Shown here piece by piece: positions 1-63,790 of a stretch of 64,000 bases of DNA. A program made the translations under genes and the position numbers. Below the pieces are notes generated by a model that did not search any database, was not told the origin of the DNA, and saw only the letters and a list, made by a program, of their open reading frames with translations. The first letter of the stretch is position 1. Each line of letters begins with the position of its first letter. The DNA comes from Siphonodentalium dalli. Its lineage: Eukaryota > Mollusca > Scaphopoda > Gadilida > Siphonodentaliidae. Where the stretch lies: contig CP136062.1 in NCBI GenBank assembly GCA_032622095.1, positions 150,406,875 to 150,470,874 on the forward strand, given 5' to 3'.

Positions 1-24
1 GATTAATAAAATTGCATTTCCCTT
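1..24 (+). repeat. B monomer, right end only (cut by window edge)
   Basis: Matches the last 24 bases of every B monomer and ends in CCCTT immediately before A1. Confidence 0.9.
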
Positions 25-191
25 AAGGTGACACTCCACAGTTTCGAATGATCAGTAGGGGTAAATTTCTTAGAATAGAGTACCAGTGTTTTCTGTCACC
101 GTGGGTGTGGTATGTTTATTGAGAGAAGGTTAGTTATGAATTTGTGGATTTTTAGAGGATGTCTTTGAGTTTTGAAAAATATTGTTTCAGG

Positions 192-200
192 TGACCTTGA
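192..200 (-). promoter_or_regulatory. Nuclear-receptor-like motif TCAAGGTCA in A (reference instance)
   Basis: On the minus strand the sequence reads GGGGTCAAGGTCACC. It contains TCAAGGTCA, the consensus of the ERR/FTZ-F1 (SF-1) monomer sites, and can also be read as two half-sites, GGGTCA and AGGTCA, with no spacer (DR0). The same motif sits at the equivalent place in the other A copies and in the diverged copy at 63236-63244. Binding is not shown; this is a sequence match only. Confidence 0.35.
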
Positions 201-567
201 CCCCACCAGTATGAAGTAGTAGCGATTTCTGCGAAACAGTGGCTCCAGACACCAGCGTGACTTTTTAGCACCTAAAATTTGTCATCTGCATGAAAAATAT
301 TTTTTTTAAACTTACAGTGGTGAGAAGTTTGAAATTTTTTGATATTATTGTGAGGAAACAGTGTTCTTCCAGACAACATAGGCGGCTATACCATAGATTT
401 TCTGGTTTTTGTGTCCCACGGGCCTGAAAATCGCTTATTTTGGCCATTTTTGCATCAAAATTTCATTTTTCAGGCACACAATCCAGGGGCATAACTCTTG
501 CTACCCCCATTAAAATGACAATTCTGTACCAAAATCTTTAAGCCTAGTATGTGCTCAACCCAGGTAT

Positions 568-582
568 ATATACATTGTATAT
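568..582. repeat. 15-bp palindrome in A (reference instance)
   Basis: ATATACA and TGTATAT are reverse complements around a central T. It is present in nearly every A copy; A7 carries a one-base change (GCATAT) in the right arm. It could form a small hairpin. No function is evident. Confidence 0.6.
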
Positions 583-675
583 GTGTTGTGGGATAACATT
601 TCAGTTATTTTTCATTGAATTGATGCCCCCCTTAGTTTTGCACCAATCCCTGCAGAAACTGTGGAGTGTCACCTT

Positions 676-1518
676 CAAGACCAGCAAATAGCACTATTTT
701 CATCTGTCAACTTGACAAATATTGTTACTGAAAATCATTTTTTAGCAAATCTGTTCAGTTAGAAGGAACATTTTATGGTAGATACACCATTCTTCTATGG
801 AAATTCCAATACAGGTTGTCTTTAGTCATATAAATTGGTGGGCATATGGAGTCTTGGAGCAGTGGGGGGGGGGTGGTGGTTCATGTATATGGTTATTGGT
901 GATTTTTCAGATGATGGGTACTTCTTCGTGACATCATATGCTCCTTGAATCTTAGCTGAAAAGGCTGATATTGTGACATTACACAGTATACAACAAGATT
1001 TTTTTTTTTAGATATTCAGTCTTTCTTATTCACAAGTGTGAAATATAATAATTCAGGTTTCCTTGGTCATATTTCACTTGACAACATATTGTTCATGTGA
1101 TGTCATAACCTTGTAAAGCTTTCCCTTAATGCAAAATAAGACTTGGAATTTTTTAACCCATAGTTTTGGGAGAGTATTAAAGATAGTTGTTGTATGAAAT
1201 ATTATGTTTTATTTTGATATCTGAGGAAAATATGCATCTCATAATATATTTTATACAACATTTTAGCATTTCAGACCTTTTTCAAGCCATAGATGATGGT
1301 TGAATATATCCATTTTGTCACTACGTCAAGCATAACGTCATTGGGTTCTGAAAGACCCAAAAGGGGTGAAATCATGGGGGTGCATGTAAATCCCCACCCA
1401 ATCTTGCTGCCTGTGATTGCAATAACGCATGGGGTGTAATATATCATTTTAAGCGGTATAATGCAGAGAATATGGAGGTGTGGTCCCTATTAAAGATTAA
1501 TAAAATTGCATTTCCCTT
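676..1518 (+). repeat. B satellite monomer 1a (reference copy)
   Basis: Reference for all B monomers. It starts CAAGACCAGCAAATAGC and ends TTGCATTTCCCTT, with phase defined by the A insertion site. There are no terminal inverted repeats and no coding potential. Landmarks: a G-run (10 G here) followed by TGGTGG near 864-880; a T-tract near 1001-1011; TGACATCA at 929-936 and its reverse complement TGATGTCA at 1098-1105; an imperfect hairpin at 1189-1259; two ACGTCA sequences at 1323-1328 and 1335-1340; a C/T variant site within ATATAT(C/T)ATTTT, C here. It is followed directly by another B (unoccupied site CCCTTCAAG). Confidence 0.93.
1189..1259. repeat. Imperfect inverted repeat in B (reference instance)
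   Basis: The left arm at 1189-1206 (GTTGTATGAAATATTATG) pairs with 1240-1259 (CATAATATATTTTATACAAC), with one mismatch and a 2-base bulge around a loop of about 33 bases. It is present in all full B monomers. It could form a cruciform or an RNA stem; no role is known. Confidence 0.6.
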
Positions 1519-2362
1519 CAAGACCAGCAAATAGCACTATTTTCATCTGTCAACTTGACAAATATTGTTACTGAAAATCATTTTTTAGCAAATCTGTTCA
1601 GTTAGAAGGAACATTTTATGGTAGATACACCATTCTTCTATGGAAATTCCAATACAGGTTGTCTTTAGTCATATAAATTGGTGGGCATATGGAGTCTTGG
1701 AGCAGTGGGGGGGGGGGTGGTGGTTCATGTATATGGTTATTGGTGATTTTTCAGATGATGGGTACTTCTTCGTGACATCATATGCTCCTTGAATCTTAGC
1801 TGAAAAGGCTGATATTGTGACATTACACAGTATACAACAAGATTTTTTTTTTTAGATATTCAGTCTTTCTTATTCACAAGTGTGAAATATAATAATTCAG
1901 GTTTCCTTGGTCATATTTCACTTGACAACATATTGTTCATGTGATGTCATAACCTTGTAAAGCTTTCCCTTAATGCAAAATAAGACTTGGAATTTTTTAA
2001 CCCATAGTTTTGGGAGAGTATTAAAGATAGTTGTTGTATGAAATATTATGTTTTATTTTGATATCTGAGGAAAATATGCATCTCATAATATATTTTATAC
2101 AACATTTTAGCATTTCAGACCTTTTTCAAGCCATAGATGATGGTTGAATATATCCATTTTGTCACTACGTCAAGCATAACGTCATTGGGTTCTGAAAGAC
2201 CCAAAAGGGGTGAAATCATGGGGGTGCATGTAAATCCCCACCCAATCTTGCTGCCTGTGATTGCAATAACGCATGGGGTGTAATATATCATTTTAAGCAG
2301 TATAATGCAGAGAATATGGAGGTGTGGTCCCTATTAAAGATTAATAAAATTGCATTTCCCTT
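1519..2362 (+). repeat. B satellite monomer 1b (extra B)
   Basis: Follows B1a with no A between them. G-run 11, C allele. Private change: AAGCAGTATA instead of AAGCGGTATA near 2290. Followed by A2. Confidence 0.93.
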
Positions 2363-3012: not shown

Positions 3013-3856
3013 CAAGACCAGCAAATAGCACTATTTTCATCTGTCAACTTGACAAATATTGTTACTGAAAATCATTTTTTAGCAAATCTGTTCAGTTAGA
3101 AGGAACATTTTATGGTAGATACACCATTCTTCTATGGAAATTCCAATACAGGTTGTCTTTAGTCATATAAATTGGTGGGCATATGGAGTCTTGGAGCAGT
3201 GGGGGGGTGGTGGTTCATGTATATGGTTATTGGTGATTTTTCAGATGATGGGTACTTCTTCGTGACATCATATGCTCCTTGAATCTTAGCTGAAAAGGCT
3301 GATATTGTGACATTACACAGTATACAACAAGAATTTTTTTTTTAGATATTCAGTCTTTCTTATTCACAAGTGTGAAATATAATAATTCAGGTTTCCTTGG
3401 TCATATTTCACTTGACAACATATTGTTCATGTGATGTCATAACCTTGTAAAGCTTTCCCTTAATGCAAAATAAGACTTGGAATTTTTTAACCCATAGTTT
3501 TGGGAGAGTATTAAAGATAGTTGTTGTATGAAATATTATGTTTTATATTGATATCTGAGGAAAATATGCATCTCATAATATATTTTATACAACATTTTAG
3601 CATTTCAGACCTTTTTCAAGCCATAGATGATGGTTGAATATATCCATTTTGTCACTACGTCAAGCATAACGTCATTGGGTTCTGAAAGACCCAAAAGGGG
3701 TGAAATCATGGGGGTGCATGTAAATCCCCACCCAATCTTGCTGCCTGTGATTGCAATAACGCATGGGGTGTAATATATCATTTTAAGCGGTATAATGCAG
3801 AGAATATGGAGGTGTGGTCCCTATTAAAGATTAATAAAATTGCATTTCCCTTAATT
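3013..3856 (+). repeat. B satellite monomer 2
   Basis: G-run 7, C allele. The T-tract begins GAAT instead of GATT; TTTTATATTGAT near 3541 is private. It ends in TTAATT before A3, so the left junction reads TTAATTAAGG. Confidence 0.93.
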
Positions 3857-16647: not shown

Positions 16648-17490
16648 CAAGACCAGCAAATAGCACTATTTTCATCTGTCAACTTGACAAATATTGTTAC
16701 TGAAAATCATTTTTTAGCAAATCTGTTCAGTTAGAAGGAACATTTTATGGTAGATACACCATTCTTCTATGGAAATTCCAATACAGGTTGTCTTTAGTCA
16801 TATAAATTGGTGGGCATATGGAGTCTTGGAGCAGTGGGGGGGGGTGGTGGTTCATGTATATGGTTATTGGTGATTTTTCAGATGATGGGTACTTCTTCGT
16901 GACATCATATGCTCCTTGAATCTTAGCTGAAAAGGCTGATATTGTGACATTACACAGTATACAACAAGATTTTTTTTTTAGATATTCAGTCTTTCTTATT
17001 CACAAGTGTGAAATATAATAATTCAGGTTTCCTTGGTCATATTTCACTTGACAACATATTGTTCATGTGATGTCATAACCTTGTAAAGCTTTCCCTTAAT
17101 GCAAAATAAGACTTGGAATTTTTTAACCCATAGTTTTGGGAGAGTATTAAAGATAGTTGTTGTATGAAATATTATGTTTTATTTTGATATCTGAGGAAAA
17201 TATGCATCTCATAATATATTTTATACAACATTTTAGCATTTCAGACCTTTTTCAAGCCATAGATGATGGTTGAATATATCCATTTTGTCACTACGTCAAG
17301 CATAACGTCATTGGGTTCTGAAAGACCCAAAAGGGGTGAAATCATGGGGGTGCATGTAAATCCCCACCCAATCTTGCTGCCTGTGATTGCAATAACGCAT
17401 GGGGTGTAATATATCATTTTAAGCGGTATAATGCAGAGAATATGGAGGTGTGGTCCCTATTAAAGATTAATAAAATTGCATTTCCCTTTT
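16648..17490 (+). repeat. B satellite monomer 10a, with TTTT junction
   Basis: G-run 9, C allele. Its right junction reads CCCTTTTCAAG, the only B-B junction with two extra T. This equals the sequence expected if A were lost while both flanking TT were kept. Confidence 0.93.
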
Positions 17491-18333
17491 CAAGACCAGC
17501 AAATAGCACTATTTTCATCTGTCAACTTGACAAATATTGTTACTGAAAATCATTTTTTAGCAAATCTGTTCAGTTAGAAGGAACATTTTATGGTAGATAC
17601 ACCATTCTTCTATGGAAATTCCAATACAGGTTGTCTTTAGTCATATAAATTGGTGGGCATATGGAGTCTTGGAGCAGTGGGGGGGGGGTGGTGGTTCATG
17701 TATATGGTTATTGGTGATTTTTCAGATGATGGGTACTTCTTCGTGACATCATATGCTCCTTGAATCTTAGCTGAAAAGGCTGATATTGTGACATTACACA
17801 GTATACAACAAGATTTTTTTTTTCAGATATTCAGTCTTTCTTATTCACAAGTGTGAAATATAATAATTCAGGTTTCCTTGGTCATATTTCACTTGACAAC
17901 ATATTGTTCATGTGATGTCATAACCTTGTAAAGCTTTCCCTTAATGCAAAATAAGACTTGGAATTTTTTAACCCATAGTTTTGGGAGAGTATTAAAGATA
18001 GTTGTTGTATGAAATATTATGTTTTATTTTGATATCTGAGGAAAATATGCATCTCATAATATATTTTATACAACATTTTAGCATTTCAGACCTTTTTCAA
18101 GCCATAGATGATGGTTGAATATATCCATTTTGTCACTACGTCAAGCATAACGTCATTGGGTTCTGAAAGACCCAAAAGGGGTGAAATCATGGGGGTGCAT
18201 GTAAATCCCCACCCAATCTTGCTGCCTGTGATTGGAATAACGCATGGGGTGTAATATATCATTTTAAGCGGTATAATGCAGAGAATATGGAGGTGTGGTC
18301 CCTATTAAAGATTAATAAAATTGCATTTCCCTT
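17491..18333 (+). repeat. B satellite monomer 10b (extra B)
   Basis: G-run 10, C allele. The T-tract ends in CAG rather than TAG. GATTGGAATAACG near 18232 is shared with distant B24a. Unoccupied junction. Confidence 0.93.
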
Positions 18334-19174: not shown

Positions 19175-19790
19175 CAAGACCAGCAAATAGCACTATTTTC
19201 ATCTGTCAACTTGACAAATATTGTTACTGAAAATCATTTTTTAGCAAATCTGTTCAGTTAGAAGGAACATTTTATGGTAGATACACCATTCTTCTATGGA
19301 AATTCCAATACAGGTTGTCTTTAGTCATATAAATTGGTGGGCATATGGAGTCTTGGAGCAGTGGGGGGGGGGGGGTGGTGGTTCATGTATATGGTTATTG
19401 GTGATTTTTCAGATGATGGGTACTTCTTCGTGACATCATATGCTCCTTGAATCTTAGCTGAAAAGGCTGATATTGTGACATTACACAGTATACAACAAGA
19501 TTATTTTTTTTAGGTATTCAGTCTTTCTTATTCACAAGTGTGAAATATAATAATTCAGGTTTCCTTGGTCATATTTCACTTGACAACATATTGTTCATGT
19601 GATGTCATAACCTTGTAAAGCTTTCCCTTAATGCAAAATAAGACTTGGAATTTTTTAACCCATAGTTTTGGGAGAGTATTAAAGATAGTTGTTGTATGAA
19701 ATATTATGATTTATTTTGATATCTGAGGAAAATATGCATCTCATAATATATTTTATACAACATTTTAGCATTTCAGACCTTTTTCAAGCC
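19175..19790 (+). repeat. B satellite monomer 10d, truncated on the right
   Basis: G-run 13. The monomer stops at TTTTTCAAGCC and is joined directly to the first base of A11, losing about 230 bp of B's right end, including the normal CCCTT flank. Private changes: T-tract starting TTATTTT and ending TAGGTATTC, and ATTATGATTTA near 19704. Confidence 0.93.
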
Positions 19791-20441
19791 AAGGTGACAC
19801 TCCACAGTTTCGAATGATCAGTAGGTGTAAATTTCTTAGAATAGAGTACCAGTGTTTTCTGTCACCGTGGGTGTGGTATGTTTATTGAGAGAAGGTTAGT
19901 TATGAATTTGTGGATTTTTAGAGGATGTCTTTGAGTTTTGAAAAATATTGTTTCAGGTGACCTTGACCCCACCAGTATGAAGTAGTAGCGATTTCTGCGA
20001 AACAGTGGCTCCAGACACCAGCGTGACTTTTTAGCACCTAAAATTTGTCATCTGCATGAAAAATATTTTTTTTAAACTTACAGTGGTGAGAAGTTTGAAA
20101 TTTTTTGATATTATTGTGAGGAAACAGTGTTCTTCCAGACAACATAGGCGGCTATACCATAGATTTTCTGGTTTTTGTGTCCCACGGGCCTGAAAATCGC
20201 TTATTTTGGCCATTTTTGCATCAAAATTTCATTTTTCAGGCACACAATCCAGGGGCATAACTCTTGCTACCCCCATTAAAATGACAATTCTGTACCAAAA
20301 TCTTTAAGCCTAGTATGTGCTCAACCCAGGTATATATACATTGTATATGTGTTGTAGGATAACATTTCAGTTATTTTTCATTGAATTGATGCCCCCCTTA
20401 GTTTTGCACCAATCCCTGCAGAAACTGTGGAGTGTCACCTT
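19791..20441 (+). mobile_element. A element copy 11 (novel left flank)
   Basis: The left TIR begins exactly at AAGG but is preceded by TTCAAGCC from the middle of B instead of CCCTT. The right flank is the normal B start. Private AGTAGGTGTAAA (near 19823) and TTGTAGGATA (near 20353). Confidence 0.9.
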
Positions 20442-25764: not shown

Positions 25765-26422
25765 AAGGTGACACTCCACAGTTTCGAATGATCAGTAGGG
25801 GTAAATTTCTTAGAATAGAGTACCAGTGTTTTCTGTCACCGTGGGTGTGGTATGTTTATTGAGAGAAGGTTAGTTATGAATTTGTGGATTTTTAGAGGAT
25901 GTCTTTGAGTTTTGAAAAATATTGTTTCAGGTGACCTTGACCCCACCAGTATGAAGTAGTAGCGATTTCTGCGAAACAGTGGCTCCAGACACCAGCGTGA
26001 CTTTTTAGCACCTAAAATTTGTCATCTGCATGAAAAATATTTTTTTTAAACTTACAGTGGTGAGAAGTTTGAAATTTTTTGATATTATTGTGAGGAAACA
26101 GTGTTCTTCCAGACAACATACATGTAGGCGGCTATACCATAGATTTTCTGGTTTTTGTGTCCCACGGGCCTGAAAATCGCTTATTTTGGCCATTTTTGCA
26201 TCAAAATTTCATTTTTCAGGCACACAATCCAGGGGCATAACTCTTGCTACCCCCATTAAAATGACAATTCTGTACCAAAATCTTTAAGCCTAGTATGTGC
26301 TCAACCCAGGTATATATACATTGTATATGTGTTGTGGGATAACATTTCAGTTATTTTTCATTGAATTGATGCCCCCCCTTAGTTTTGCACCAATCCCTGC
26401 AGAAACTGTGGAGTGTCACCTT
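25765..26422 (+). mobile_element. A element copy 15 (6-bp and 1-bp insertions)
   Basis: A private 6-bp insertion CATGTA at 26121-26126 (ACATACATGTAGGCGG) and one extra C in the C-run near 26372-26378 make this copy 658 bp, the longest in the window. TIRs intact. Confidence 0.9.
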
Positions 26423-27262
26423 CAAGACCAGCAAATAGCACTATTTTCATCTGTCAACTTGACAAATATTGTTACTGAAAATCATTTTTTAGCAAATCTG
26501 TTCAGTTAGAAGGAACATTTTATGGTAGATACACCATTCTTCTATGGAAATTCCAATACAGGTTGTCTTTAGTCATATAAATTGGTGGGCATATGGAGTC
26601 TTGGAGCAGTGGGGGGGTGGTGGTTCATGTATATGGTTATTGGTGATTTTTCAGATGATGGGTACTTCTTCGTGACATCATATGCTCCTTGAATCTTAGC
26701 TGAAAAGGCTGATATTGTGACATTACACAGTATACAACAAGATTTTTTTTTTCAGATATTCAGTCTTTCTTATTCACAAGTGTGAAATATAATAATTCAG
26801 GTTTCCTTGGTCATATTTCACTTGACAACATATTGTTCATGTGATGTCATAACCTTGTAAAGCTTTCCCTTAATGCAAAATAAGATTTGGAATTTTTTAA
26901 CCCATAGTTTTGGGAGAGTATTAAAGATAGTTGTTGTATGAAATATTATGTTTTATTTTGATATCTGAGGAAAATATGCATCTCATAATATATTTTATAC
27001 AACATTTTAGCATTTCAGACCTTTTTCAAGCCATAGATGATGGTTGAATATATCCATTTTGTCACTACGTCAAGCATAACGTCATTGGGTTCTGAAAGAC
27101 CCAAAAGGGGTGAAATCATGGGGGTGCATGTAAATCCCCACCCAATCTTGCTGCCTGTGATTGCAATAACGCATGGGGTGTAATATATCATTTTAAGCGG
27201 TATAATGCAGAGAATATGGAGGTGTGGTCCCTATTAAAGATTAATAAAATTGCATTTCCCTT
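26423..27262 (+). repeat. B satellite monomer 15
   Basis: G-run 7, C allele, T-tract ending CAG. These three states together are shared with B17. Private TAAGATTTGG near 26881. Confidence 0.93.
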
Positions 27263-27913
27263 AAGGTGACACTCCACAGTTTCGAATGATCAGTAGGGGT
27301 AAATTTCTTAGAATAGAGTACCAGTGTTTTCTGTCACCGTGGGTGTGGTATGTTTATTGAGAGAAGGTTAGTTATGAATTTGTGGATTTTTAGAGGAAGT
27401 CTTTGAGTTTTGAAAAATATTGTTTCAGGTGACCTTGACCCCACCAGTATGAAGTAGTAGCGATTTCTGCGAAACAGTGGCTCCAGACACCAGCGTGACT
27501 TTTTAGCACCTAAAATTTGTCATCTGCATGAAAAATATTTTTTTTAAACTTACAGTGGTGAGAAGTTTGAAATGTTTTGATATTATTGTGAGGAAACAGT
27601 GTTCTTCCAGACAACATAGGCGGCTATACCATAGATTTTCTGGTTTTTGTGTCCCACGGGCCAGAAAATCGCTTATTTTGGCCATTTTTGCATCAAAATT
27701 TCATTTTTCAGGCACACAATCCAGGGGCATAACTCTTGCTACCCCCATTAAAATGACAATTCTGTACCAAAATCTTTAAGCCTAGTATGTGCTCAACCCA
27801 GGTATATATACATTGTATATGTGTTGTGGGATAACATTTCAGTTATTTTTCATTGAATTGATGCCCCCCTTAGTTTTGCACCAATCCCTGCAGAAACTGT
27901 GGAGTGTCACCTT
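27263..27913 (+). mobile_element. A element copy 16
   Basis: Carries AGAGGAAGTC and GGGCCAGAAAATC, both shared only with A18, plus private GAAATGTTTTG near 27570. TIRs intact. Confidence 0.9.
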
Positions 27914-28757
27914 CAAGACCAGCAAATAGCACTATTTTCATCTGTCAACTTGACAAATATTGTTACTGAAAATCATTTTTTAGCAAATCTGTTCAGTTAG
28001 AAGGAACATTTTATGGTAGATACACCATTCTTCTATGGAAATTCCAATACAGGTTGTCTTTAGTCATATAAATTGGTGGGCATATGGAGTCTTGGAGCAG
28101 TGGGGGGGGGGGTGGTGGTTCATGTATATGGTTATTGGTGATTTTTCAGATGATGGGTTCTTCTTCGTGACATCATATGCTCCTTGAATCTTAGCTGAAA
28201 AGGCTGATATTGTGACATTACACAGTATACAACAAGATTTTTTTTTTTAGATATTTAGTCTTTCTTATTCACAAGTGTGAAATATAATAATTCAGGTTTC
28301 CTTGGTCATATTTCACTTGACAACATATTGTTCATGTGATGTCATAACCTTGTAAAGCTTTCCCTTAATGCAAAATAAGACTTGGAATTTTTTAACCCAT
28401 AGTTTTGGGAGAGTATTAAAGATAGTTGTTGTATGAAATATTATGTTTTATTTTGATATCTGAGGAAAATATGCATCTCATAATATATTTTATACAACAT
28501 TTTAGCATTTCAGACCTTTTTCAAGCCATAGATGATGGTTGAATATATCCATTTTGTCACTACGTCAAGCATAACGTCATTGGGTTCTGAAAGACCCAAA
28601 AGGGGTGAAATCATGGGGGTGCATGTAAATCCCCACCCAATCTTGCTGCCTGTGATTGCAATAACGCATGGGGTGTAATATATTATTTTAAGCGGTATAA
28701 TGCAGAGAATATGGAGGTGTGGTCCCTATTAAAGATTAATAAAATTGCATTTCCCTT
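27914..28757 (+). repeat. B satellite monomer 16
   Basis: G-run 11, T allele. GGGTTCTTC and GATATTTAGTC are shared with B18 only. Confidence 0.93.
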
Positions 28758-29408
28758 AAGGTGACACTCCACAGTTTCGAATGATCAGTAGGGGTAAATT
28801 TCTTAGAATAGAGTACCAGTGTTTTCTGTCACCGTGGGTGTGGTATGTTTATTGAGAGAAGGTTAGTTATGAATTTGTGGATTTTTAGAGGATGTCTTTG
28901 AGTTTTGAAAAATATTGTTTCAGGTGACCTTGACCCCACCAGTATGAAGTAGTAGCGATTTCTGCGAAACAGTGGCTCCAGACACCAGCGTGACTTTTTA
29001 GCACCTAAAATTTGTCATCTGCATGAAAAATATTTTTTTTAAACTTACAGTGGTGAGAAGTTTGAAATTTTTTGATATTATTGTGAGGAAACAGTGTTCT
29101 TCCAGACAACATAGGCGGCTATACCATAGATTTTCTGGTTTTTGTGTCCCACGGGCCTGAAAATCGCTTATTTTGGCCATTTTTGCATCAAAATTTCATT
29201 TTTCAGGCACACAATCCAGGGGCATAACTCTTGCTACCCCCATTAAAATGACAATTCTGTACCAAAATCTTTAAGCCTAGTATGTGCTCAACCCAGGTAT
29301 ATATACATTGTATATGTGTTGTGGGATAACATTTCAGTTATTTTTCATTGAATTGATGCCCCCCTTAGTTTTGCACCAATCCCTGCAGAAACTGTGGAGT
29401 GTCACCTT
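28758..29408 (+). mobile_element. A element copy 17
   Basis: No difference from the majority sequence noticed. TIRs intact. Confidence 0.9.
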
Positions 29409-30248
29409 CAAGACCAGCAAATAGCACTATTTTCATCTGTCAACTTGACAAATATTGTTACTGAAAATCATTTTTTAGCAAATCTGTTCAGTTAGAAGGA
29501 ACATTTTATGGTAGATACACCATTCTTCTATGGAAATTCCAATACAGGTTGTCTTTAGTCATATAAATTGGTGGGCATATGGAGTCTTGGAGCAGTGGGG
29601 GGGTGGTGGTTCATGTATATGGTTATTGGTGATTTTTCAGATGATGGGTACTTCTTCGTGACATCATATGCTCCTTGAATCTTAGCTGAAAAGGCTGATA
29701 TTGTGACATTACACAGTATACAACAAGATTTTTTTTTTCAGATATTCAGTCTTTCTTATTCACAAGTGTGAAATATAATAATTCAGGTTTCCTTGGTCAT
29801 ATTTCACTTGACAACATATTGTTCATGTGATGTCATAACCTTGTAAAGCTTTCCCTTAATGCAAAATAAGACTTGGAATTTTTTAACCCATAGTTTTGGG
29901 AGAGTATTAAAGATAGTTGTTGTATGAAATATTATGTTTTATTTTGATATCTGAGGAAAATATGCATCTCATAATATATTTTATACAACATTTTAGCATT
30001 TCAGACCTTTTTCAAGCCATAGATGATGGTTGAATATATCCATTTTGTCACTACGTCAAGCATAACGTCATTGGGTTCTGAAAGACCCAAAAGGGGTGAA
30101 ATCATGGGGGTGCATGTAAATCCCCACCCAATCTTGCTGCCTGTGATTGCAATAACGCATGGGGTGTAATATATCATTTTAAGCGGTATAATGCAGAGAA
30201 TATGGAGGTGTGGTCCCTATTAAAGATTAATAAAATTGCATTTCCCTT
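29409..30248 (+). repeat. B satellite monomer 17
   Basis: G-run 7, C allele, T-tract ending CAG; matches B15. Confidence 0.93.
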
Positions 30249-30899
30249 AAGGTGACACTCCACAGTTTCGAATGATCAGTAGGGGTAAATTTCTTAGAAT
30301 AGAGTACCAGTGTTTTCTGTCACCGTGGGTGTGGTATGTTTATTGAGAGAAGGTTAGTTATGAATTTGTGGATTTTTAGAGGAAGTCTTTGAGTTTTGAA
30401 AAATATTGTTTCAGGTGACCTTGACCCCACCAGTATGAAGTAGTAGCGATTTCTGCGAAACAGTGGCTCCAGACACCAGCGTGACTTTTTAGCACCTAAA
30501 ATTTGTCATCTGCATGAAAAATATTTTTTTTAAACTTACAGTGGTGAGAAGTTTGAAATTTTTTGATATTATTGTGAGGAAACAGTGTTCTTCCAGACAA
30601 CATAGGCGGCTATACCATAGATTTTCTGGTTTTTGTGTCCCACGGGCCAGAAAATCGCTTATTTTGGCCATTTTTGCATCAAAATTTCATTTTTCAGGCA
30701 CACAATCCAGGGGCATAACTCTTGCTACCCCCATTAAAATGACAATTCTGTACCAAAATCTTTAAGCCTAGTATGTGCTCAACCCAGGTATATATACATT
30801 GTATATGTGTTGTGGGATAACATTTCAGTTATTTTTCATTGAATTGATGCCCCCCTTAGTTTTGCACCAATCCCTGCAGAAACTGTGGAGTGTCACCTT
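30249..30899 (+). mobile_element. A element copy 18
   Basis: Carries the AGAGGAAGTC and GGGCCAGAAAATC variants of A16. TIRs intact. Confidence 0.9.
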
Positions 30900-31743
30900 C
30901 AAGACCAGCAAATAGCACTATTTTCATCTGTCAACTTGACAAATATTGTTACTGAAAATCATTTTTTAGCAAATCTGTTCAGTTAGAAGGAACATTTTAT
31001 GGTAGATACACCATTCTTCTATGGAAATTCCAATACAGGTTGTCTTTAGTCATATAAATTGGTGGGCATATGGAGTCTTGGAGCAGTGGGGGGGGGGGTG
31101 GTGGTTCATGTATATGGTTATTGGTGATTTTTCAGATGATGGGTTCTTCTTCGTGACATCATATGCTCCTTGAATCTTAGCTGAAAAGGCTGATATTGTG
31201 ACATTACACAGTATACAACAAGATTTTTTTTTTTAGATATTTAGTCTTTCTTATTCACAAGTGTGAAATATAATAATTCAGGTTTCCTTGGTCATATTTC
31301 ACTTGACAACATATTGTTCATGTGATGTCATAACCTTGTAAAGCTTTCCCTTAATGCAAAATAAGACTTGGAATTTTTTAACCCATAGTTTTGGGAGAGT
31401 ATTAAAGATAGTTGTTGTATGAAATATTATGTTTTATTTTGATATCTGAGGAAAATATGCATCTCATAATATATTTTATACAACATTTTAGCATTTCAGA
31501 CCTTTTTCAAGCCATAGATGATGGTTGAATATATCCATTTTGTCACTACGTCAAGCATAACGTCATTGGGTTCTGAAAGACCCAAAAGGGGTGAAATCAT
31601 GGGGGTGCATGTAAATCCCCACCCAATCTTGCTGCCTGTGATTGCAATAACGCATGGGGTGTAATATATTATTTTAAGCGGTATAATGCAGAGAATATGG
31701 AGGTGTGGTCCCTATTAAAGATTAATAAAATTGCATTTCCCTT
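30900..31743 (+). repeat. B satellite monomer 18
   Basis: G-run 11, T allele, with the GGGTTCTTC and GATATTTAGTC variants of B16. Confidence 0.93.
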
Positions 31744-32394
31744 AAGGTGACACTCCACAGTTTCGAATGATCAGTAGGGGTAAATTTCTTAGAATAGAGT
31801 ACCAGTGTTTTCTGTCACCGTGGGTGTGGTATGTTTATTGAGAGAAGGTTAGTTATGAATTTGTGGATTTTTAGAGGATGTCTTTGAGTTTTGAAAAATA
31901 TTGTTTCAGGTGACCTTGACCCCACCAGTATGAAGTAGTAGCGATTTCTGCGAAACAGTGGCTCCAGACACCAGCGTGACTTTTTAGCACCTAAAATTTG
32001 TCATCTGCATGAAAAATATTTTTTTTAAACTTACAGTGGTGAGAAGTTTGAAATTTTTTGATATTATTGTGAGGAAACAGTGTTCTTCCAGACAACATAG
32101 GCGGCTATACCATAGATTTTCTGGTTTTTGTGTCCCACGGGCCTGAAAATCGCTTATTTTGGCCATTTTTGCATCAAAATTTCATTTTTCAGGCACACAA
32201 TCCAGGGGCATAACTCTTGCTACCCCCATTAAAATGACAATTCTGTACCAAAATCTTTAAGCCTAGTATGTGCTCAACCCAGGTATATATACATTGTATA
32301 TGTGTTGTGGGATAACATTTCAGTTATTTTTCATTGAATTGATGCCCCCCTTAGTTTTGCACCAATCCCTGCAGAAACTGTGGAGTGTCACCTT
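31744..32394 (+). mobile_element. A element copy 19
   Basis: No difference from the majority sequence noticed. TIRs intact. Confidence 0.9.
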
Positions 32395-47083: not shown

Positions 47084-47929
47084 CAAGACCAGCAAATAGC
47101 ACTATTTTCATCTGTCAACTTGACAAATATTGTTACTGAAAATCATTTTTTAGCAAATCTGTTCAGTTAGAAGGAACATTTTATGGTAGATACACCATTC
47201 TTCTATGGAAATTCCAATACAGGTTGTCTTTAGTCATATAAATTGGTGGGCATATGGAGTCTTGGAGCAGTGGGGGGGGGTGGTGGTTCATGTATATGGT
47301 TATTGGTGATTTTTCAGATGATGGGTACTTCTTCGTGACATCATATGCTCCTTGAATCTTAGCTGAAAAGGCTGATATTGTGACATTACACAGTATACAA
47401 CAAGATTATTTTTTTTAGATATTCAGTCTTTCTTATTCACAAGTGTGAAATATAATAATTCAGGTTTCCTTGGTCATATTTCACTTGACAACATATTGTT
47501 CATGTGATGTCATAACCTTGTAAAGCTTTCCCTTAATGCAAAATAAGACTTGGAATTTTTTAACCCATAGTTTTGGGAGAGTATTAAAGATAGTTGTTGT
47601 ATGAAATATTATGTTTTATTTTGATATCTGAGGAAAATATGCATCTCATAATATATTTTATACAACATTTTAGCATTTCAGACCTTTTTCAAGCCATAGA
47701 TGATGGTTGAATATATCCATTTTGTCACTACGTCAAGCATAACGTCATTGGGTTCTGAAAGACCCAAAAGGGGTGAAATCATGGGGGTGCATGTAAATCC
47801 CCACCCAATCTTGCTGCCTGTGATTGCAATAACGCATGGGGTGTAATATATCATTTTAAGCGGTATAATGCAGAGAATATGGAGGTGTGGTCCCTATTAA
47901 AGATTAATAAAATTGCATTTCCCTTAATT
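47084..47929 (+). repeat. B satellite monomer 26e (extra B)
   Basis: G-run 9, C allele, T-tract interrupted by A. Right end carries the extra TTAA. Confidence 0.93.
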
Positions 47930-50074: not shown

Positions 50075-50916
50075 CAAGACCAGCAAATAGCACTATTTTC
50101 ATCTGTCAACTTGACAAATATTGTTACTGAAAATCATTTTTTAGCAAATCTGTTCAGTTAGAAGGAACATTTTATGGTAGATACACCATTCTTCTATGGA
50201 AATTCCAATACAGGTTGTCTTTAGTCATATAAATTGGTGGGCATATGGAGTCTTGGAGCAGTGGGGGGGGGTGGTGGTTCATGTATATGGTTATTGGTGA
50301 TTTTTCAGATGATGGGTACTTCTTCGTGACATCATATGCTCCTTGAATCTTAGCTGAAAAGGCTGATATTGTGACATTACACAGTATACAACAAGATTAT
50401 TTTTTTTAGATATTCAGTCTTTCTTATTCACAAGTGTGAAATATAATAATTCAGGTTTCCTTGGTCATATTTCACTTGACAACATATTGTTCATGTGATG
50501 TCATAACCTTGTAAAGCTTTCCCTTAATGCAAAATAAGACTTGGAATTTTTTAACCCATAGTTTTGGGAGAGTATTAAAGATAGTTGTTGTATGAAATAT
50601 TATGTTTTATTTTGATATCTGAGGAAAATATGCATCTCATAATATATTTTATACAACATTTTAGCATTTCAGACCTTTTTCAAGCCATAGATGATGGTTG
50701 AATATATCCATTTTGTCACTACGTCAAGCATAACGTCATTGGGTTCTGAAAGACCCAAAAGGGGTGAAATCATGGGGGTGCATGTAAATCCCCACCCAAT
50801 CTTGCTGCCTGTGATTGCAATAACGCATGGGGTGTAATATATCATTTTAAGCGGTATAATGCAGAGAATATGGAGGTGTGGTCCCTATTAAAGATTAATA
50901 AAATTGCATTTCCCTT
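50075..50916 (+). repeat. B satellite monomer 28a
   Basis: G-run 9, C allele, T-tract interrupted by A. Unoccupied junction with the next B. Confidence 0.93.
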
Positions 50917-51763
50917 CAAGACCAGCAAATAGCACTATTTTCATCTGTCAACTTGACAAATATTGTTACTGAAAATCATTTTTTAGCAAATCTGTTCAGT
51001 TAGAATGAACATTTTATGGTAGATACACCATTCTTCTATGGAAATTCCAATACAGGTTGTCTTTAGTCATATAAATTGGTGGGCATATGGAGTCTTGGAG
51101 CAGTGGGGGGGGGGTGGTGGTTCATGTATATGGTTATTGGTGATTTTTCAGATGATGGGTACTTCTTCGTGACATCATATGCTCCTTGAATCTTAGCTGA
51201 AAAGGCTGATATTGTGACATTACACAGTATACAACAAGATTTTTTTTTTTAGATATTCAGTCTTTCTTATTCACAAGTGTGAAATATAATAATTCAGGTT
51301 TCCTTGGTCATATTTCACTTGACAACATATTGTTCATGTGATGTCATAACCTTGTAAAGCTTTCCCTTAATGCAAAATAAGACTTGGAATTTTTTAACCC
51401 ATAGTTTTGGGAGAGTATTAAAGATAGTTGTTGTATGAAATATTATGTTTTATTTTGATATCTGAGGAAAATATGCATCTCATAATATATTTTATACAAC
51501 ATTTTAGCATTTCAGACCTTTTTCAAGCCATAGATGATGGTTGAATATATCCATTTTGTCACTACGTCAAGCATAACGTCATTGGGTTCTGAAAGACCCA
51601 AAAGGGGTGAAATCATGGGGGTGCATGTAAATCCCCACCCAATCTTGCTGCCTGTGATTGCAATAACGCATGGGGTGTAATATATCATTTTAAGCGGTAT
51701 AATGCAGAGAATATGGAGGTGTGGTCCCTATTAAAGATTAATAAAATTGCATTTCCCTTAATT
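50917..51763 (+). repeat. B satellite monomer 28b (extra B)
   Basis: G-run 10, C allele. TTAGAATGAACATT near 51000. Right end carries the extra TTAA. Confidence 0.93.
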
Positions 51764-52414
51764 AAGGTGACACTCCACAGTTTCGAATGATCAGTAGGGG
51801 TAAATTTCTTAGAATAGAGTACCAGTGTTTTCTGTCACCGTGGGTGTGGTATGTTTATTGAGAGAAGGTTAGTTATGAATTTGTGGATTTTTAGAGGATG
51901 TCTTTGAGTTTTGAAAAATATTGTTTCAGGTGACCTTGACCCCACCAGTATGAAGTAGTAGCGATTTCTGCGAAACAGTGGCTCCAGACACCAGCGTGAC
52001 TTTTTAGCACCTAAAATTTGTCATCTGCATGAAAAATATTTTTTTTAAACTTACAGTGGTGAGAAGTTTGAAATTTTTTGATATTATTGTGAGGAAACAG
52101 TGTTCTTCCAGACAACATAGGCGGCTATACCATAGATTTTCTGGTTTTTGTGTCCCACGGGCCTGAAAATCGCTTATTTTGGCCATTTTTGCATCAAAAT
52201 TTCATTTTTCAGGCACACAATCCAGGGGCATAACTCTTGCTACCCCCATTAAAATGACAATTCTGTACCAAAATCTTTAAGCCTAGTATGTGCTCAACCC
52301 AGGTATATATACATTGTATATGTGTTGTGGGATAACATTTCAGTTATTTTTCATTGAATTGATGCCCCCCTTAGTTTTGCACCAATCTCTGCAGAAACTG
52401 TGGAGTGTCACCTT
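51764..52414 (+). mobile_element. A element copy 29 (TTAATTAA left junction)
   Basis: TTAATTAA at 51758-51765. CCAATCTCTGCAG shared with A28. TIRs intact. Confidence 0.9.
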
Positions 52415-53259
52415 CAAGACCAGCAAATAGCACTATTTTCATCTGTCAACTTGACAAATATTGTTACTGAAAATCATTTTTTAGCAAATCTGTTCAGTTA
52501 GAAGGAACATTTTATGGTAGATACACCATTCTTCTATGGAAATTCCAATACAGGTTGTCTTTAGTCATATAAATTGGTGGGCATATGGAGTCTTGGAGCA
52601 GTGGGGGGGGGGGGTGGTGGTTCATGTATATGGTTATTGGTGATTTTTCAGATGATGGGTACTTCTTCGTGACATCATATGCTCCTTGAATCTTAGCTGA
52701 AAAGGCTGATATTGTGACATTACACAGTATACAACAAGATTATTTTTTTTAGATATTCAGTCTTTCTTATTCACAAGTGTGAAATATAATAATTCAGGTT
52801 TCCTTGGTCATATTTCACTTGACAACATATTGTTCATGTGATGTCATAACCTTGTAAAGCTTTCCCTTAATGCAAAATAAGACTTGGAATTTTTTAACCC
52901 ATAGTTTTGGGAGAGTATTAAAGATAGTTGTTGTATGAAATATTATGTTTTATTTTGATATCTGAGGAAAATATGCATCTCATAATATATTTTATACAAC
53001 ATTTTAGCATTTCAGACCTTTTTCAAGCCATAGATGATGGTTGAATATATCCATTTTGTCACTACGTCAAGCATAACGTCATTGGGTTCTGAAAGACCCA
53101 AAAGGGGTGAAATCATGGGGGTGCATGTAAATCCCCACCCAATCTTGCTGCCTGTGATTGCAATAACGCATGGGGTGTAATATATCATTTTAAGCGGTAT
53201 AATGCAGAGAATATGGAGGTGTGGTCCCTATTAAAGATTAATAAAATTGCATTTCCCTT
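52415..53259 (+). repeat. B satellite monomer 29a
   Basis: G-run 12, C allele, T-tract interrupted by A as in B28a. Unoccupied junction. Confidence 0.93.
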
Positions 53260-54106
53260 CAAGACCAGCAAATAGCACTATTTTCATCTGTCAACTTGAC
53301 AAATATTGTTACTGAAAATCATTTTTTAGCAAATCTGTTCAGTTAGAATGAACATTTTATGGTAGATACACCATTCTTCTATGGAAATTCCAATACAGGT
53401 TGTCTTTAGTCATATAAATTGGTGGGCATATGGAGTCTTGGAGCAGTGGGGGGGGGGTGGTGGTTCATGTATATGGTTATTGGTGATTTTTCAGATGATG
53501 GGTACTTCTTCGTGACATCATATGCTCCTTGAATCTTAGCTGAAAAGGCTGATATTGTGACATTACACAGTATACAACAAGATTTTTTTTTTTAGATATT
53601 CAGTCTTTCTTATTCACAAGTGTGAAATATAATAATTCAGGTTTCCTTGGTCATATTTCACTTGACAACATATTGTTCATGTGATGTCATAACCTTGTAA
53701 AGCTTTCCCTTAATGCAAAATAAGACTTGGAATTTTTTAACCCATAGTTTTGGGAGAGTATTAAAGATAGTTGTTGTATGAAATATTATGTTTTATTTTG
53801 ATATCTGAGGAAAATATGCATCTCATAATATATTTTATACAACATTTTAGCATTTCAGACCTTTTTCAAGCCATAGATGATGGTTGAATATATCCATTTT
53901 GTCACTACGTCAAGCATAACGTCATTGGGTTCTGAAAGACCCAAAAGGGGTGAAATCATGGGGGTGCATGTAAATCCCCACCCAATCTTGCTGCCTGTGA
54001 TTGCAATAACGCATGGGGTGTAATATATCATTTTAAGCGGTATAATGCAGAGAATATGGAGGTGTGGTCCCTATTAAAGATTAATAAAATTGCATTTCCC
54101 TTAATT
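53260..54106 (+). repeat. B satellite monomer 29b (extra B)
   Basis: G-run 10, C allele. TTAGAATGAACATT as in B28b. Right end carries the extra TTAA. Confidence 0.93.
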
Positions 54107-54757
54107 AAGGTGACACTCCACAGTTTCGAATGATCAGTAGGGGTAAATTTCTTAGAATAGAGTACCAGTGTTTTCTGTCACCGTGGGTGTGGTATGTTTA
54201 TTGAGAGAAGGTTAGTTATGAATTTGTGGATTTTTAGAGGATGTCTTTGAGTTTTGAAAAATATTGTTTCAGGTGACCTTGACCCCACCAGTATGAAGTA
54301 GTAGCGATTTCTGCGAAACAGTGGCTCCAGACACCAGCGTGACTTTTTAGCACCTAAAATTTGTCATCTGCATGAAAAATATTTTTTTTAAACTTACAGT
54401 GGTGAGAAGTTTGAAATTTTTTGATATTATTGTGAGGAAACAGTGTTCTTCCAGACAACATAGGCGGCTATACCATAGATTTTCTGGTTTTTGTGTCCCA
54501 CGGGCCTGAAAATCGCTTATTTTGGCCATTTTTGCATCAAAATTTCATTTTTCAGGCACACAATCCAGGGGCATAACTCTTGCTACCCCCATTAAAATGA
54601 CAATTCTGTACCAAAATCTTTAAGCCTAGTATGTGCTCAACCCAGGTATATATACATTGTATATGTGTTGTGGGATAACATTTCAGTTATTTTTCATTGA
54701 ATTGATGCCCCCCTTAGTTTTGCACCAATCCCTGCAGAAACTGTGGAGTGTCACCTT
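54107..54757 (+). mobile_element. A element copy 30 (TTAATTAA left junction)
   Basis: TTAATTAA at 54101-54108. No other difference noticed. TIRs intact. Confidence 0.9.
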
Positions 54758-55601
54758 CAAGACCAGCAAATAGCACTATTTTCATCTGTCAACTTGACAA
54801 ATATTGTTACTGAAAATCATTTTTTAGCAAATCTGTTCAGTTAGAAGGAACATTTTATGGTAGATACACCATTCTTCTATGGAAATTCCAATACAGGTTG
54901 TCTTTAGTCATATAAATTGGTGTGCATATGGATGGAGTCTTGGAGCAGTGGGGGGGGTGGTGGTTCATGTATATGGTTATTGGTGATTTTTCAGATGATG
55001 GGTACTTCTTCGTGACATCATATGCTCCTTGAATCTTAGCTGAAAAGGCTGATATTGTGACATTACACAGTATACAACAAGATTTTTTTTTTAGATATTC
55101 AGTCTTTCTTATTCACAAGTGTGAAATATAATAATTCAGGTTTCCTTGGTCATATTTCACTTGACAACATATTGTTCATGTGATGTCATAACCTTGTAAA
55201 GCTTTCCCTTAATGCAAAATAAGACTTGGAATTTTTTAACCCATAGTTTTGGGAGAGTATTAAAGATAGTTGTTGTATGAAATATTATGTTTTATTTTGA
55301 TATCTGAGGAAAATATGCATCTCATAATATATTTTATACAACATTTTAGCATTTCAGACCTTTTTCAAGCCATAGATGATGGTTGAATATATCCATTTTG
55401 TCACTACGTCAAGCATAACGTCATTGGGTTCTGAAAGACCCAAAAGGGGTGAAATCATGGGGGTGCATGTAAATCCCCACCCAATCTTGCTGCCTGTGAT
55501 TGCAATAACGCATGGGGTGTAATATATCATTTTAAGCGGTATAATGCAGAGAATATGGAGGTGTGGTCCCTATTAAAGATTAATAAAATTGCATTTCCCT
55601 T
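54758..55601 (+). repeat. B satellite monomer 30
   Basis: G-run 8, C allele. Private GTGTGCATATGGATGGAG near 54920, containing a 4-bp tandem duplication (ATGG). Confidence 0.93.
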
Positions 55602-58593: not shown

Positions 58594-59435
58594 CAAGACC
58601 AGCAAATAGCACTATTTTCATCTGTCAACTTGACAAATATTGTTACTGAAAATCATTTTTTAGCAAATCTGTTCAGTTAGAAGGAACATTTTATGGTAGA
58701 TACACCATTCTTCTATGGAAATTCCAATACAGGTTGTCTTTAGTCATATAAATTGGTGGGCATATGGAGTCTTGGAGCAGTGGGGGGGGGTGGTGGTTCA
58801 TGTATATGGTTATTGGTGATTTTTCAGATGATGGGTACTTCTTCGTGACATCATATGCTCCTTGAATCTTAGCTGAAAAGGCTGATATTGTGACATTACA
58901 CAGTATACAACAAGATTTTTTTTTTTAGATATTCAGTCTTTCTTATTCACAAGTGTGAAATATAATAATTCAGGTTTCCTTGGTCATATTTCACTTGACA
59001 ACATATTGTTCATGTGATGTCATAACCTTGTAAAGCTTTCCCTTAATGCAAAATAAGACTTGGAATTTTTTAACCCATAGTTTTGGGAGAGTATTAAAGA
59101 TAGTTGTTGTATGAAATATTATGTTTTATTTTGATATCTGAGGAAAATATGCATCTCATAATATATTTTATACAACATTTTAGCATTTCAGACCTTTTTC
59201 AAGCCATAGATGATGGTTGAATATATCCATTTTGTCACTACGTCAAGCATAACGTCATTGGGTTCTGAAAGACCCAAAAGGGGTGAAATCATGGGGGTGC
59301 ATGTAAATCCCCACCCAATCTTGCTACCTGTGATTGCAATAACGCATGGGGTGTAATATATCATTTTAAGCGGTATAATGCAGAGAATATGGAGGTGTGG
59401 TCCCTATTAAAGATTAATAAAATTGCATTTCCCTT
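58594..59435 (+). repeat. B satellite monomer 32b (extra B)
   Basis: G-run 9, C allele. CTTGCTACCTGTG as in B31. Confidence 0.93.
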
Positions 59436-60086
59436 AAGGTGACACTCCACAGTTTCGAATGATCAGTAGGGGTAAATTTCTTAGAATAGAGTACCAGTGT
59501 TTTCTGTCACCGTGGGTGTGGTATGTTTATTGAGAGAAGGTTAGTTATGAATTTGTGGATTTTTAGAGGATGTCTTTGAGTTTTGAAAAATATTGTTTCA
59601 GGTGACCTTGACCCCACCAGTATGAAGTAGTAGCGATTTCTGCGAAACAGTGGCTCCAGACACCAGCGTGACTTTTTAGCACCTAAAATTTGTCATCTGC
59701 ATGAAAAATATTTTTTTTAAACTTACAGTGGTGAGAAGTTTGAAATTTTTTGATATTATTGTGAGGAAACAGTGTTCTTCCAGACAACATAGGCGGCTAT
59801 ACCATAGATTTTCTGGTTTTTGTGTCCCACGGGCCTGAAAATCGCTTATTTTGGCCATTTTTGCATCAAAATTTCATTTTTCAGGCACACAATCCAGGGG
59901 CATAACTCTTGCTACCCCCATTAAAATGACAATTCTGTACCAAAATCTTTAAGCCTAGTATGTGCTCAACCCAGGTATATATACATTGTATATGTGTTGT
60001 GGGATAACATTTCAGTTATTTTTCATTGAATTGATGCCCCCCTTAGTTTTGCACCAATCCCTGCAGAAACTGTGGAGTGTCACCTT
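59436..60086 (+). mobile_element. A element copy 33
   Basis: No difference from the majority sequence noticed. TIRs intact. Confidence 0.9.
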
Positions 60087-60925
60087 CAAGACCAGCAAAT
60101 AGCACTATTTTCATCTGTCAACTTGACAAATATTGTTACTGAAAATCATTTTTTAGCAAATCTGTTCAGTTAGAATGTACATTTTATGGTAGATACACCA
60201 TTCTTCTATGGAAATTCCAATACAGGTTGTCTTTAGTCATATAAATTGGTGGGCATATGGAGTCTTGGAGCAGTGGGGGGGTGGTGGTTCATGTATATGG
60301 TTATTGGTGATTTTTCAGATGATGGGTACTTCTTCGTGACATCATATGCTCCTTGAATCTTAGCTGAAAAGGCTGATATTGTGACATTACACAGTATACA
60401 ACAAGATTTTTTTTTTAGATATTCAGTCTTTCTTATTCACAAGTGTGAAATATAATAATTCAGGTTTCCTTGGTCATATTTCACTTGACAACATATTGTT
60501 CATGTGATGTCATAACCTTGTAAAGCTTTCCCTTAATGCAAAATAAGACTTGGAATTTTTTAACCCATAGTTTTGGGAGAGTATTAAAGATAGTTGTTGT
60601 ATGAAATATTATGTTTTATTTTGATATCTGAGGAAAATATGCATCTCATAATATATTTTATACAACATTTTAGCATTTCAGACCTTTTTCAAGCCATAGA
60701 TGATGGTTGAATATATCCATTTTGTCACTACGTCAAGCATAACGTCATTGGGTTCTGAAAGACCCAAAAGGGGTGAAATCATGGGGGTGCATGTAAATCC
60801 CCACCCAATCTTGCTGCCTGTGATTGCAATAACGCATGGGGTGTAATATATCATTTTAAGCGGTATAATGCAGAGAATATGGAGGTGTGGTCCCTATTAA
60901 AGATTAATAAAATTGCATTTCCCTT
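60087..60925 (+). repeat. B satellite monomer 33
   Basis: G-run 7, C allele. TTAGAATGTACATT near 60170 looks like the B32a variant with one further change. Confidence 0.93.
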
Positions 60926-61576
60926 AAGGTGACACTCCACAGTTTCGAATGATCAGTAGGGGTAAATTTCTTAGAATAGAGTACCAGTGTTTTCTGTCAC
61001 CGTGGGTGTGGTATGTTTATTGAGAGAAGGTTAGTTATGAATTTGTGGATTTTTAGAGGATGTCTTTGAGTTTTGAAAAATATTGTTTCAGGTGACCTTG
61101 ACCCCACCAGTATGAAGTAGTAGCGATTTCTGCGAAACAGTGGCTCCAGACACCAGCGTGACTTTTTAGCACCTAAAATTTGTCATCTGCATGAAAAATA
61201 TTTTTTTTAAACTTACAGTGGTGAGAAGTTTGAAATTTTTTGATATTATTGTGAGGAAACAGTGTTCTTCCAGACAACATAGGCGGCTATACCATAGATT
61301 TTCTGGTTTTTGTGTCCCACGGGCCTGAAAATCGCTTATTTTGGCCATTTTTGCATCAAAATTTCATTTTTCAGGCACACAATCCAGGGGCATAACTCTT
61401 GCTACCCCCATTAAAATGACAATTCTGTACCAAAATCTTTAAGCCTAGTATGTGCTCAACCCAGGTATATATACATTGTATATGTGTTGTGGGATAACAT
61501 TTCAGTTATTTTTCATTGAATTGATGCCCCCCTTAGTTTTGCACCAATCCCTGCAGAAACTGTGGAGTGTCACCTT
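60926..61576 (+). mobile_element. A element copy 34
   Basis: No difference from the majority sequence noticed. TIRs intact. Confidence 0.9.
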
Positions 61577-62418
61577 CAAGACCAGCAAATAGCACTATTT
61601 TCATCTGTCAACTTGACAAATATTGTTACTGAAAATCATTTTTTAGCAAATCTGTTCAGTTAGAAGGAACATTTTATGGTAGATACACCATTCTTCTATG
61701 GAAATTCCAATACAGGTTGTCTTTAGTCATATAAATTGGTGGGCATATGGAGTCTTGGAGCAGTGGGGGGGGGGTGGTGGTTCATGTATATGGTTATTGG
61801 TGATTTTTCAGATGATGGGTACTTCTTCGTGACATCATATGCTCCTTGAATCTTAGCTGAAAAGGCTGATATTGTGACATTACACAGTATACAACAAGAT
61901 TTTTTTTTTAGATATTCAGTCTTTCTTATTCACAAGTGTGAAATATAATAATTCAGGTTTCCTTGGTCATATTTCACTTGACAACATATTGTTCATGTGA
62001 TGTCATAACCTTGTAAAGCTTTCCCTTAATGCAAAATAAGACTTGGAATTTTTTAACCCATAGTTTTGGGAGAGTATTAAAGATAGTTGTTGTATGAAAT
62101 ATTATGTTTTATTTTGATATCTGAGGAAAATATGCATCTCATAATATATTTTATACAACATTTTAGCATTTCAGACCTTTTTCAAGCCATAGATGATGGT
62201 TGAATATATCCATTTTGTCACTACGTCAAGCATAACGTCATTGGGTTCTGAAAGACCCAAAAGGGGTGAAATCATGGGGGTGCATGTAAATCCCCACCCA
62301 ATCTTGCTGCCTGTGATTGCAATAACGCATGGGGTGTAATATATCATTTTAAGCGGTATAATGCAGAGAATATGGAGGTGTGGTCCCTATTAAAGATTAA
62401 TAAAATTGCATTTCCCTT
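61577..62418 (+). repeat. B satellite monomer 34 (last B)
   Basis: G-run 10, C allele. No other difference noticed. No B sequence is recognised to the right of this monomer. Confidence 0.93.
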
Positions 62419-63067
62419 AAGGTGACACTCCACAGTTTCGAATGATCAGTAGGGGTAAATTTCTTAGAATAGAGTACCAGTGTTTTCTGTCACCGTGGGT
62501 GTGGTATGTTTATTGAGAGAAGGTTAGTTATGAATTTGTGGATTTTTAGAGGATGTCTTTGAGTTTTGAAAAATATTGTTTCAGGTGACCTTGACCCCAC
62601 CAGTATGAAGTAGTAGCGATTTCTGCGAAATAGTGGCTCCAGACACCAGCGTGACTTTTTAGCACCTAAAATTTGTCATCTGCATGAAAAATATTTTTTT
62701 TAAACTTACAGTGGTGAGAAGTTTGAATTTTTTTGATATTATTGTGAGGAAACAGTGTTCTTCCAGACAACATAGGCGGCTATACCATAGATTTTCTGGT
62801 TTTTGTGTCCCACGGGCCTGAAAATCGCTTATATTGGCCATTTTTGCATCAAAATTTCATTTTTCAGGCACACAATCCAGGGGCATAACTCTTGCTACCC
62901 CCATTAAAATGACAATTCTGTACCAAAATCTTTAAGCCTAGTATGTGCTCAACCCAGGTATATATACATTGTATATGTGTTGTGGGATAACATTTCAGTT
63001 ATTTTTCATTGAATTGATGCCCCCCTTAGTTTTGCACCAATCCCTGCAGAAACTGTGGAGTGTCACC
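62419..63067 (+). mobile_element. A element copy 35 (last array copy, right boundary)
   Basis: Shares GCGAAATAGTGGC and TTGAATTTTTTTGAT with A31; private CTTATATTGGCC near 62827. The right TIR is complete to ...GTGTCACC, but the next bases are AGA instead of TTCAAG, so the homogeneous array ends exactly at the element terminus. Confidence 0.9.
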
Positions 63068-63070
63068 AGA

Positions 63071-63718: not shown

Positions 63719-63790
63719 AGAACCAGTCCTTGTGAGTCTTGGAAATGTTTGTATATAAAATTTGGTTGAGAATTTTTTTAAAGAAAAAAA
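63719..63790. other. Short unique spacer, probable 3' untranslated start of the kinase gene
   Basis: AT-rich non-repetitive DNA between the right end of A36 and the kinase stop codon. On the minus strand, no canonical AATAAA is seen here or in A36. The transcript 3' end is therefore either non-canonical or lies further left, inside repeat DNA. Each array A copy carries a minus-strand AATAAA (the plus-strand TTTATT in TGTTTATTGAG). Confidence 0.5.

Follow-up and report, generated by a model that had tools for sequence, protein, structure and literature searches.

The window, i.e., the whole 64,000-base stretch of Siphonodentalium dalli DNA analyzed here, is filled from position 1 to 63067 by a head-to-tail tandem array of 35 A blocks and 48 B blocks, all in a single orientation. 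Two kinds of unit make up the array: B by itself (~843 bp) and B joined to A (~1494 bp). A was present after 34 of the 48 B blocks and absent after 14, leaving 14 B-B junctions. The blocks follow the order ABBABABBABABABABABBABABBBBABABABABABABABABABABABABABABBABABBBBBABABBABBABABABBABABA, with the first A preceded by 24 bases of another B. Identity to the first copy of each block was 98.9 to 100% for A and 99.0 to 100% for B, and one B of the 48 is truncated. Chance repetition was ruled out by units that are ~99 to 100% identical across 63 kb. The preliminary description of this DNA had counted 35 A blocks of 651 bp and 14 B-B junctions lacking A at one identical site, together forming an irregular string of occupied and unoccupied monomers. 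Our block count, a check of the junction sequences, and the block order bear this out; the figure of 651 bp is counted from AA to TT, and 647 bp lie between the inverted-repeat ends. With 63 kb of head-to-tail repeats, a nucleotide diversity (pi) of about 0.3%, and variants common to near units, the array has the structure of a satellite homogenized by concerted evolution. Tandem Repeats Finder did not detect it because the longest period of that program is 500.

Coordinates of the features in the window
Feature	Position	Strand	Remarks
Tandem array with 35 A blocks, 48 B blocks, and 14 A-less B-B junctions	1..63067	+	Left part lies outside the window
Terminal A block (A35), 647 bp, perfect 19-bp TIRs	62421..63067	+	Right end is the right end of the array
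B48, example of a B block, coding capacity not found	61577..62418	+	
B16, truncated B, 3' part gone (230 alignment columns) to the left end of A11	19175..19792	+	
Example of an empty B-B junction, CCCTTCAAG	1503..1528	+	
Sole variant empty junction, CCCTTTTCAAG	17473..17500	+	
Extra TTAA copies	3853-3856, 33239-33242, 34736-34739, 47926-47929, 51760-51763, 54103-54106		
B21-A16-B22-A17 repeated as B23-A18-B24-A19, variants common to both	26423..32394	+	Exact 2029-bp repeat, offset 2986
B39-B40-A29 repeated as B41-B42-A30, empty junction included	50075..54757	+	Exact 2125-bp repeat, offset 2343
AGA spacer from the last A of the array to A'	63068..63070	+	AGA recurs after A'
A', diverged A-family element with B-free flanks	63071..63718	+	19-bp TIRs same as A; AGA on each side
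Protein-kinase gene, 3' end (final 69 codons plus stop)	63791..64000	-	Pfam, structure comparison by sequence

Smaller differences between units were also seen. There is a TACATG insertion inside A15 (25767-26420) and an ATGG insertion, which is a tandem duplication, inside B43 (54758-55601). In each B, the length of the poly-G tract (e.g., at about 865-875) ranges between 6 and 13 G across units and differs even between neighbors, reflecting either fast slippage or sequencing error.

To the right of the array lie a diverged A-family element, termed A', and the end of a protein-kinase gene. From the latter, 68 residues matched Pfam Pkinase (E value of 2.2e-6) with a bit score of 27.7, which is below the curated cut-off of 31.7. 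Among solved structures, SIK3 and AMPK were the closest by sequence. A distance of 72 bp separates the kinase stop codon from A', and about 0.7 kb separates it from the array, which thus adjoins a gene.

Block A and its relative A'

Block A is 647 bp long and has perfect 19-bp terminal inverted repeats (TIRs), GGTGACACTCCACAGTTTC. A' is 648 bp long and oriented like A, with 464 of 647 aligned sites identical (~72%); BLAST of the two gave 73.5% over a 653-column alignment. Their ends are identical at 55 terminal sites (36 left and 19 right), and the interior is 69% identical. Such identity would be expected from constraint, the ends being what a transposase recognizes, with gene conversion between neighbors as an alternative account. 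Because A' lies beyond the array and has no adjoining B, A is, judging from sequence, an element family. The junction of A and A' (63049-63089) forms a near-perfect palindrome in which two 19-bp TIRs face each other across AGA.

The preliminary description had proposed that a miniature inverted-repeat transposable element (MITE) was captured by a satellite and had expected isolated A copies with other flanks. The first part of this holds insofar as A belongs to the TIR elements and its family includes A', which is unlinked to B. A' also qualifies as a copy with other flanks, and it is the only A-family member in the 64-kb window besides the array copies, right next door to them. Both A and A' have TIRs, and A is short, with no transposase coding found among the 10 of 20 listed open reading frames (ORFs) that were scanned against Pfam (five from A, three from B, and two from A'). 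At an E value of 0.1, the five A ORFs and the two A' ORFs had no match, and the three B ORFs had none except a subthreshold EGF match in B (E value of 0.088). On these 10 ORFs, a coding function for A or B was rejected. A structured RNA of a known family was likewise rejected for positions 59000-64000, the segment scanned, which had no Rfam match. The terminal A, as a single DNA strand, folded more stably than shuffled sequences (z of -3.9 from only 20 shuffles). Exact matches to the A TIR or to internal motifs were absent from viral and genome contig collections, which included no eukaryote genomes, and blastn found no relative of A among plasmids or of B among phages. A literature search with the TIR string returned only unrelated papers, as judged by titles and abstract openings.

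The A site and the array edge

Empty B-B junctions read CCCTTCAAG in 13 of 14 cases and CCCTTTTCAAG in the remaining one. On the left, A is flanked by CCCTTAA in 27 of 35 copies, by TTAATTAA in six, by CCCCTTAA in one, and by the truncated B in one, so that seven copies carry an extra TTAA or C beyond the plain CCCTTAA. On the right, the flank is TTCAAG in 34 of 35 copies, the exception being the terminal A (AGA). The common occupied site, TTAA-A-TTCA, is therefore the common empty site TTCA plus A and one extra 4-bp copy, and this exact difference, A and one TTMA copy, also agrees with the proposed capture of A. As expected for a single event, the pair would fit one insertion with a 4-bp duplication in which one copy changed and, equally well, one precise excision. 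The extra TTAA at the left end of six A copies occurs on differing B backgrounds, and either conversion or recurrent duplication could account for it.

Candidate target-site duplications are TTAA/TTCA for A (a match at three of four bases) and AGA/AGA for A' (3 bp), and the terminal A is flanked by TTAA on the left side and by AGA on the right side. Elements of the piggyBac type and others that target TTAA have TTAA duplicated on both sides. A does not show this pattern, its right side being TTCA in 34 of 35 copies and AGA at the terminal copy, with AGA also at A'. A TA duplication of the Tc1/mariner kind is not seen either, since the bases adjacent to the TIRs are AA/TT (A) and GA/AG (A').

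On its right, the array stops precisely at the end of an A block, with three bases between that end and A'. By simple arithmetic, an edge of random phase would lie within one base of an A end with a chance of about 0.004. The 3' truncation of B16 also stops at the left end of an A. We counted five distinct nonhomopolymer indels of at least 2 bp, of which three (the B16 truncation, the extra TTAA, and the TTTT variant at the empty form of the site) lie at the A site, a zone of about 24 bp in a unit of 1494 bp (P of about 4e-5, a post hoc value since this zone was picked after data inspection). The count omits the empty allele itself and homopolymer changes, and the TTTT case, coded as a substitution in the alignment, was added by hand. 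The ends of A seem to break or slip more often, via transposase or hairpin formation. With the array edge at an A terminus and three of five indels at the A site, A seems to be involved in breakpoints. One extension of this idea, which we regard as improbable, is that transposase cutting at the A ends both empties monomers and transplants or anchors array stretches at new loci, here beside A'. If true, A would be the active joint of the array, not a passenger, and the satellite would spread as a composite transposon bounded by internal MITEs.

Diversity and probable exchange within the array

We compared the diversity of the two blocks. Singletons numbered 21 over 35 A copies (0.00093 per bp per copy) versus 35 over 48 B copies (0.00089; Fisher p of 0.89). 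With the poly-G and poly-T tracts of B masked, pi was 0.00271 for A and 0.00335 for B, a ratio of 0.81 with a 95% bootstrap interval of 0.43 to 1.43. Within this wide interval, A and B look about equally old within the array, and since A diversity is not markedly below that of B, it gives no sign of A as a late arrival. The 23 B blocks touching an empty junction had a mean of 2.42 pairwise differences compared to 2.88 for the 25 B blocks between two A blocks (permutation p of 0.46). When only the left neighbor was considered, B blocks left of empty junctions differed by a mean of 1.98 and those left of A by 2.93, a nominal difference. About equal diversity of A and B, together with B blocks at empty junctions that do not look older, implies that the mixture of occupied and empty monomers looks about as old as the last homogenization of the array. 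The earlier suggestion that the array was frozen partway to fixation thus found no support: singleton rates of A and B are equal, their diversity is similar (again with a wide interval), and B at empty junctions is not older-looking than B between two A blocks.

Near units share more than distant ones. Shared variants per B pair were 0.19, 0.37, and 0.20 at distances of 1, 2, and 3 units and 0.024 at 21 to 47 units. Two stretches of several blocks are also duplicated along the array, and the duplicated BBA block carries an empty junction plus the scarce variants 335A, 90T, and TTAATTAA. Unequal exchange that moves both unit types is the simplest account of the shared variants and the block duplications. 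Occupancy itself was not significantly clustered (18 runs versus 20.85 expected; one-sided p of 0.20). Distances between A blocks were not significantly correlated with those between the preceding B blocks (r of -0.125; p of 0.78) or the following B blocks (r of 0.235; p of 0.086; 34 pairs each). Recombination therefore probably also falls between A and B, and these distances give no evidence of coinheritance of A and B. Linkage of occupancy to four single nucleotide polymorphisms (SNPs) was weak and gives no direction, with uncorrected p values of 0.037 for 780T, 0.099 for 335A, and 1 for the other two. Using A' as an outgroup, the array-majority base was also found in A' at 18 of 25 variable A sites, and at two of the other seven A' had the minority base; this polarity bears on A only, not on B.

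Origin of the mixed monomers

The best explanation of these data, to which we would give about even chances, is a single insertion of A into B-type sequence followed by unequal exchange of A-bearing and A-less monomers in a recently homogenized array. The non-autonomous TIR transposon A would have inserted once at a TTCA site with a 4-bp duplication, one copy of which would later have come to read TTAA. Unequal exchange would then have amplified and intermixed units with and without A as equivalent monomers, and the array edge may have arisen via A, e.g., through recombination with an A copy already present next to A'. We infer the insertion-first direction, the 4-bp duplication, the unequal exchange, and the role of A at the edge. 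Insertion into B-type sequence is favored because the flanks of A resemble each other across the B-B join, a resemblance that two separate insertions would leave to chance. Against this account, B at empty junctions, which should be the older class, is if anything less diverse, the two 4-bp copies do not fully match (TTAA/TTCA), and the flanks of A' point to a different duplication, AGA, of 3 bp.

The reverse direction is a serious rival, possible if somewhat doubtful: A plus B would be ancestral, and the 14 empty junctions would go back to A excising once or a few times, with repair at TT or TTMA microhomology and spread by unequal exchange. The two empty-junction alleles would suit such repair, although CCCTTTTCAAG can also be derived from a slip of two T, and the clustering of indels at the A site points the same way but may come from transposase-independent slippage at the palindromic ends. 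In their diversity, the B classes lean slightly toward loss, without significance, in that B left of empty junctions is not more diverse than B left of A. When the MITE mPing was assayed in yeast with nonmatching target duplications, repaired excision sites mostly kept one copy, and both were kept in about 14% (PMC4561436). The empty site is, however, also exactly as a preinsertion site should look, and within the window, where B has no outgroup, insertion and precise excision are indistinguishable. We consider it quite unlikely that two A elements in the same orientation once flanked B, that exchange then built an (A-B)n array bounded by A at both ends, and that the empty units are later losses. 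An array edge exactly at an A terminus would be expected from this history, and two head-to-tail A-family elements sharing a 3-bp AGA resemble transposon dimers as portrayed in PMC12628747. However, the terminal A has CCCTTAA on the left, AGA on the right, and no duplication, and the match at three of four bases between the flanks of A within the array is left to chance by this model.

Long near-identical arrays are hard to assemble. This difficulty, along with poly-G tracts that change between units, raises the question of whether the A-less junctions are collapsed or misjoined repeats. We hold such artifacts to be very unlikely, since the join at the TIR site is exact to the base in 13 of the 14 empty junctions, these junctions lie at many separate places, and one was duplicated within a block along with scarce variants. 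Insertion of A followed by unequal exchange remains our preferred account.

There is ample documentation of satellites that derive from MITEs or contain them (PMC12628747, PMC9659126, and PMC2581405), as there is of head-to-tail multiplication of transposons (PMC8834629). The satellite DNA of Messor bouvieri carries the mariner element Mboumar, with the MITE IRE-130 (PMC2581405 and PMC9659126). Like the present array, it has a TIR transposon inside a satellite, and there a MITE accompanies the transposon and has been proposed to contribute to satellite evolution. In contrast, A is 647 bp long with no transposase found in it and no TA duplication, and occupied and empty monomers alternate here in one assembled array. 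In the MITE- or transposon-derived satellites Xstir and miDNA4 of Xenopus, Tetris TIR-220 of Drosophila, and HindIII/BIV160 of bivalves (PMC12628747 and PMC9659126), mobile-element sequence similarly enters a tandem repeat, whereas A is a dispensable block in a larger unit and did not itself give rise to the monomer. A general likeness of the present array to mollusk repeats may also exist. McGurk and Barbash 2018 are credited with describing how double insertion yields transposon dimers and tandem arrays (PMC12628747). A and A' likewise lie head to tail with a shared AGA, and they mark the end of the array, but they differ at about 28% of sites, and B, which lies outside the element, is part of the array unit. 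The Bari1 cluster at h39 of D. melanogaster (PMC8834629) is a comparable case of precise head-to-tail multiplication of a TIR transposon; its copies are described as head to tail, whereas the A copies are set apart by B. In a shallow search of partial texts, we met no report of occupied and empty monomers alternating within one array, which we do not take to mean that none exists.

Many satellites are thought to derive from transposons or to have absorbed them, and most have been observed only after fixation. That a transposon becomes part of a repeat array is already an accepted class of event, of which this array is a clear example. It preserves the occupied and empty states base-exact, with a diverged relative of A and a gene alongside, so that insertion first versus excision first is testable by comparing loci and related species.
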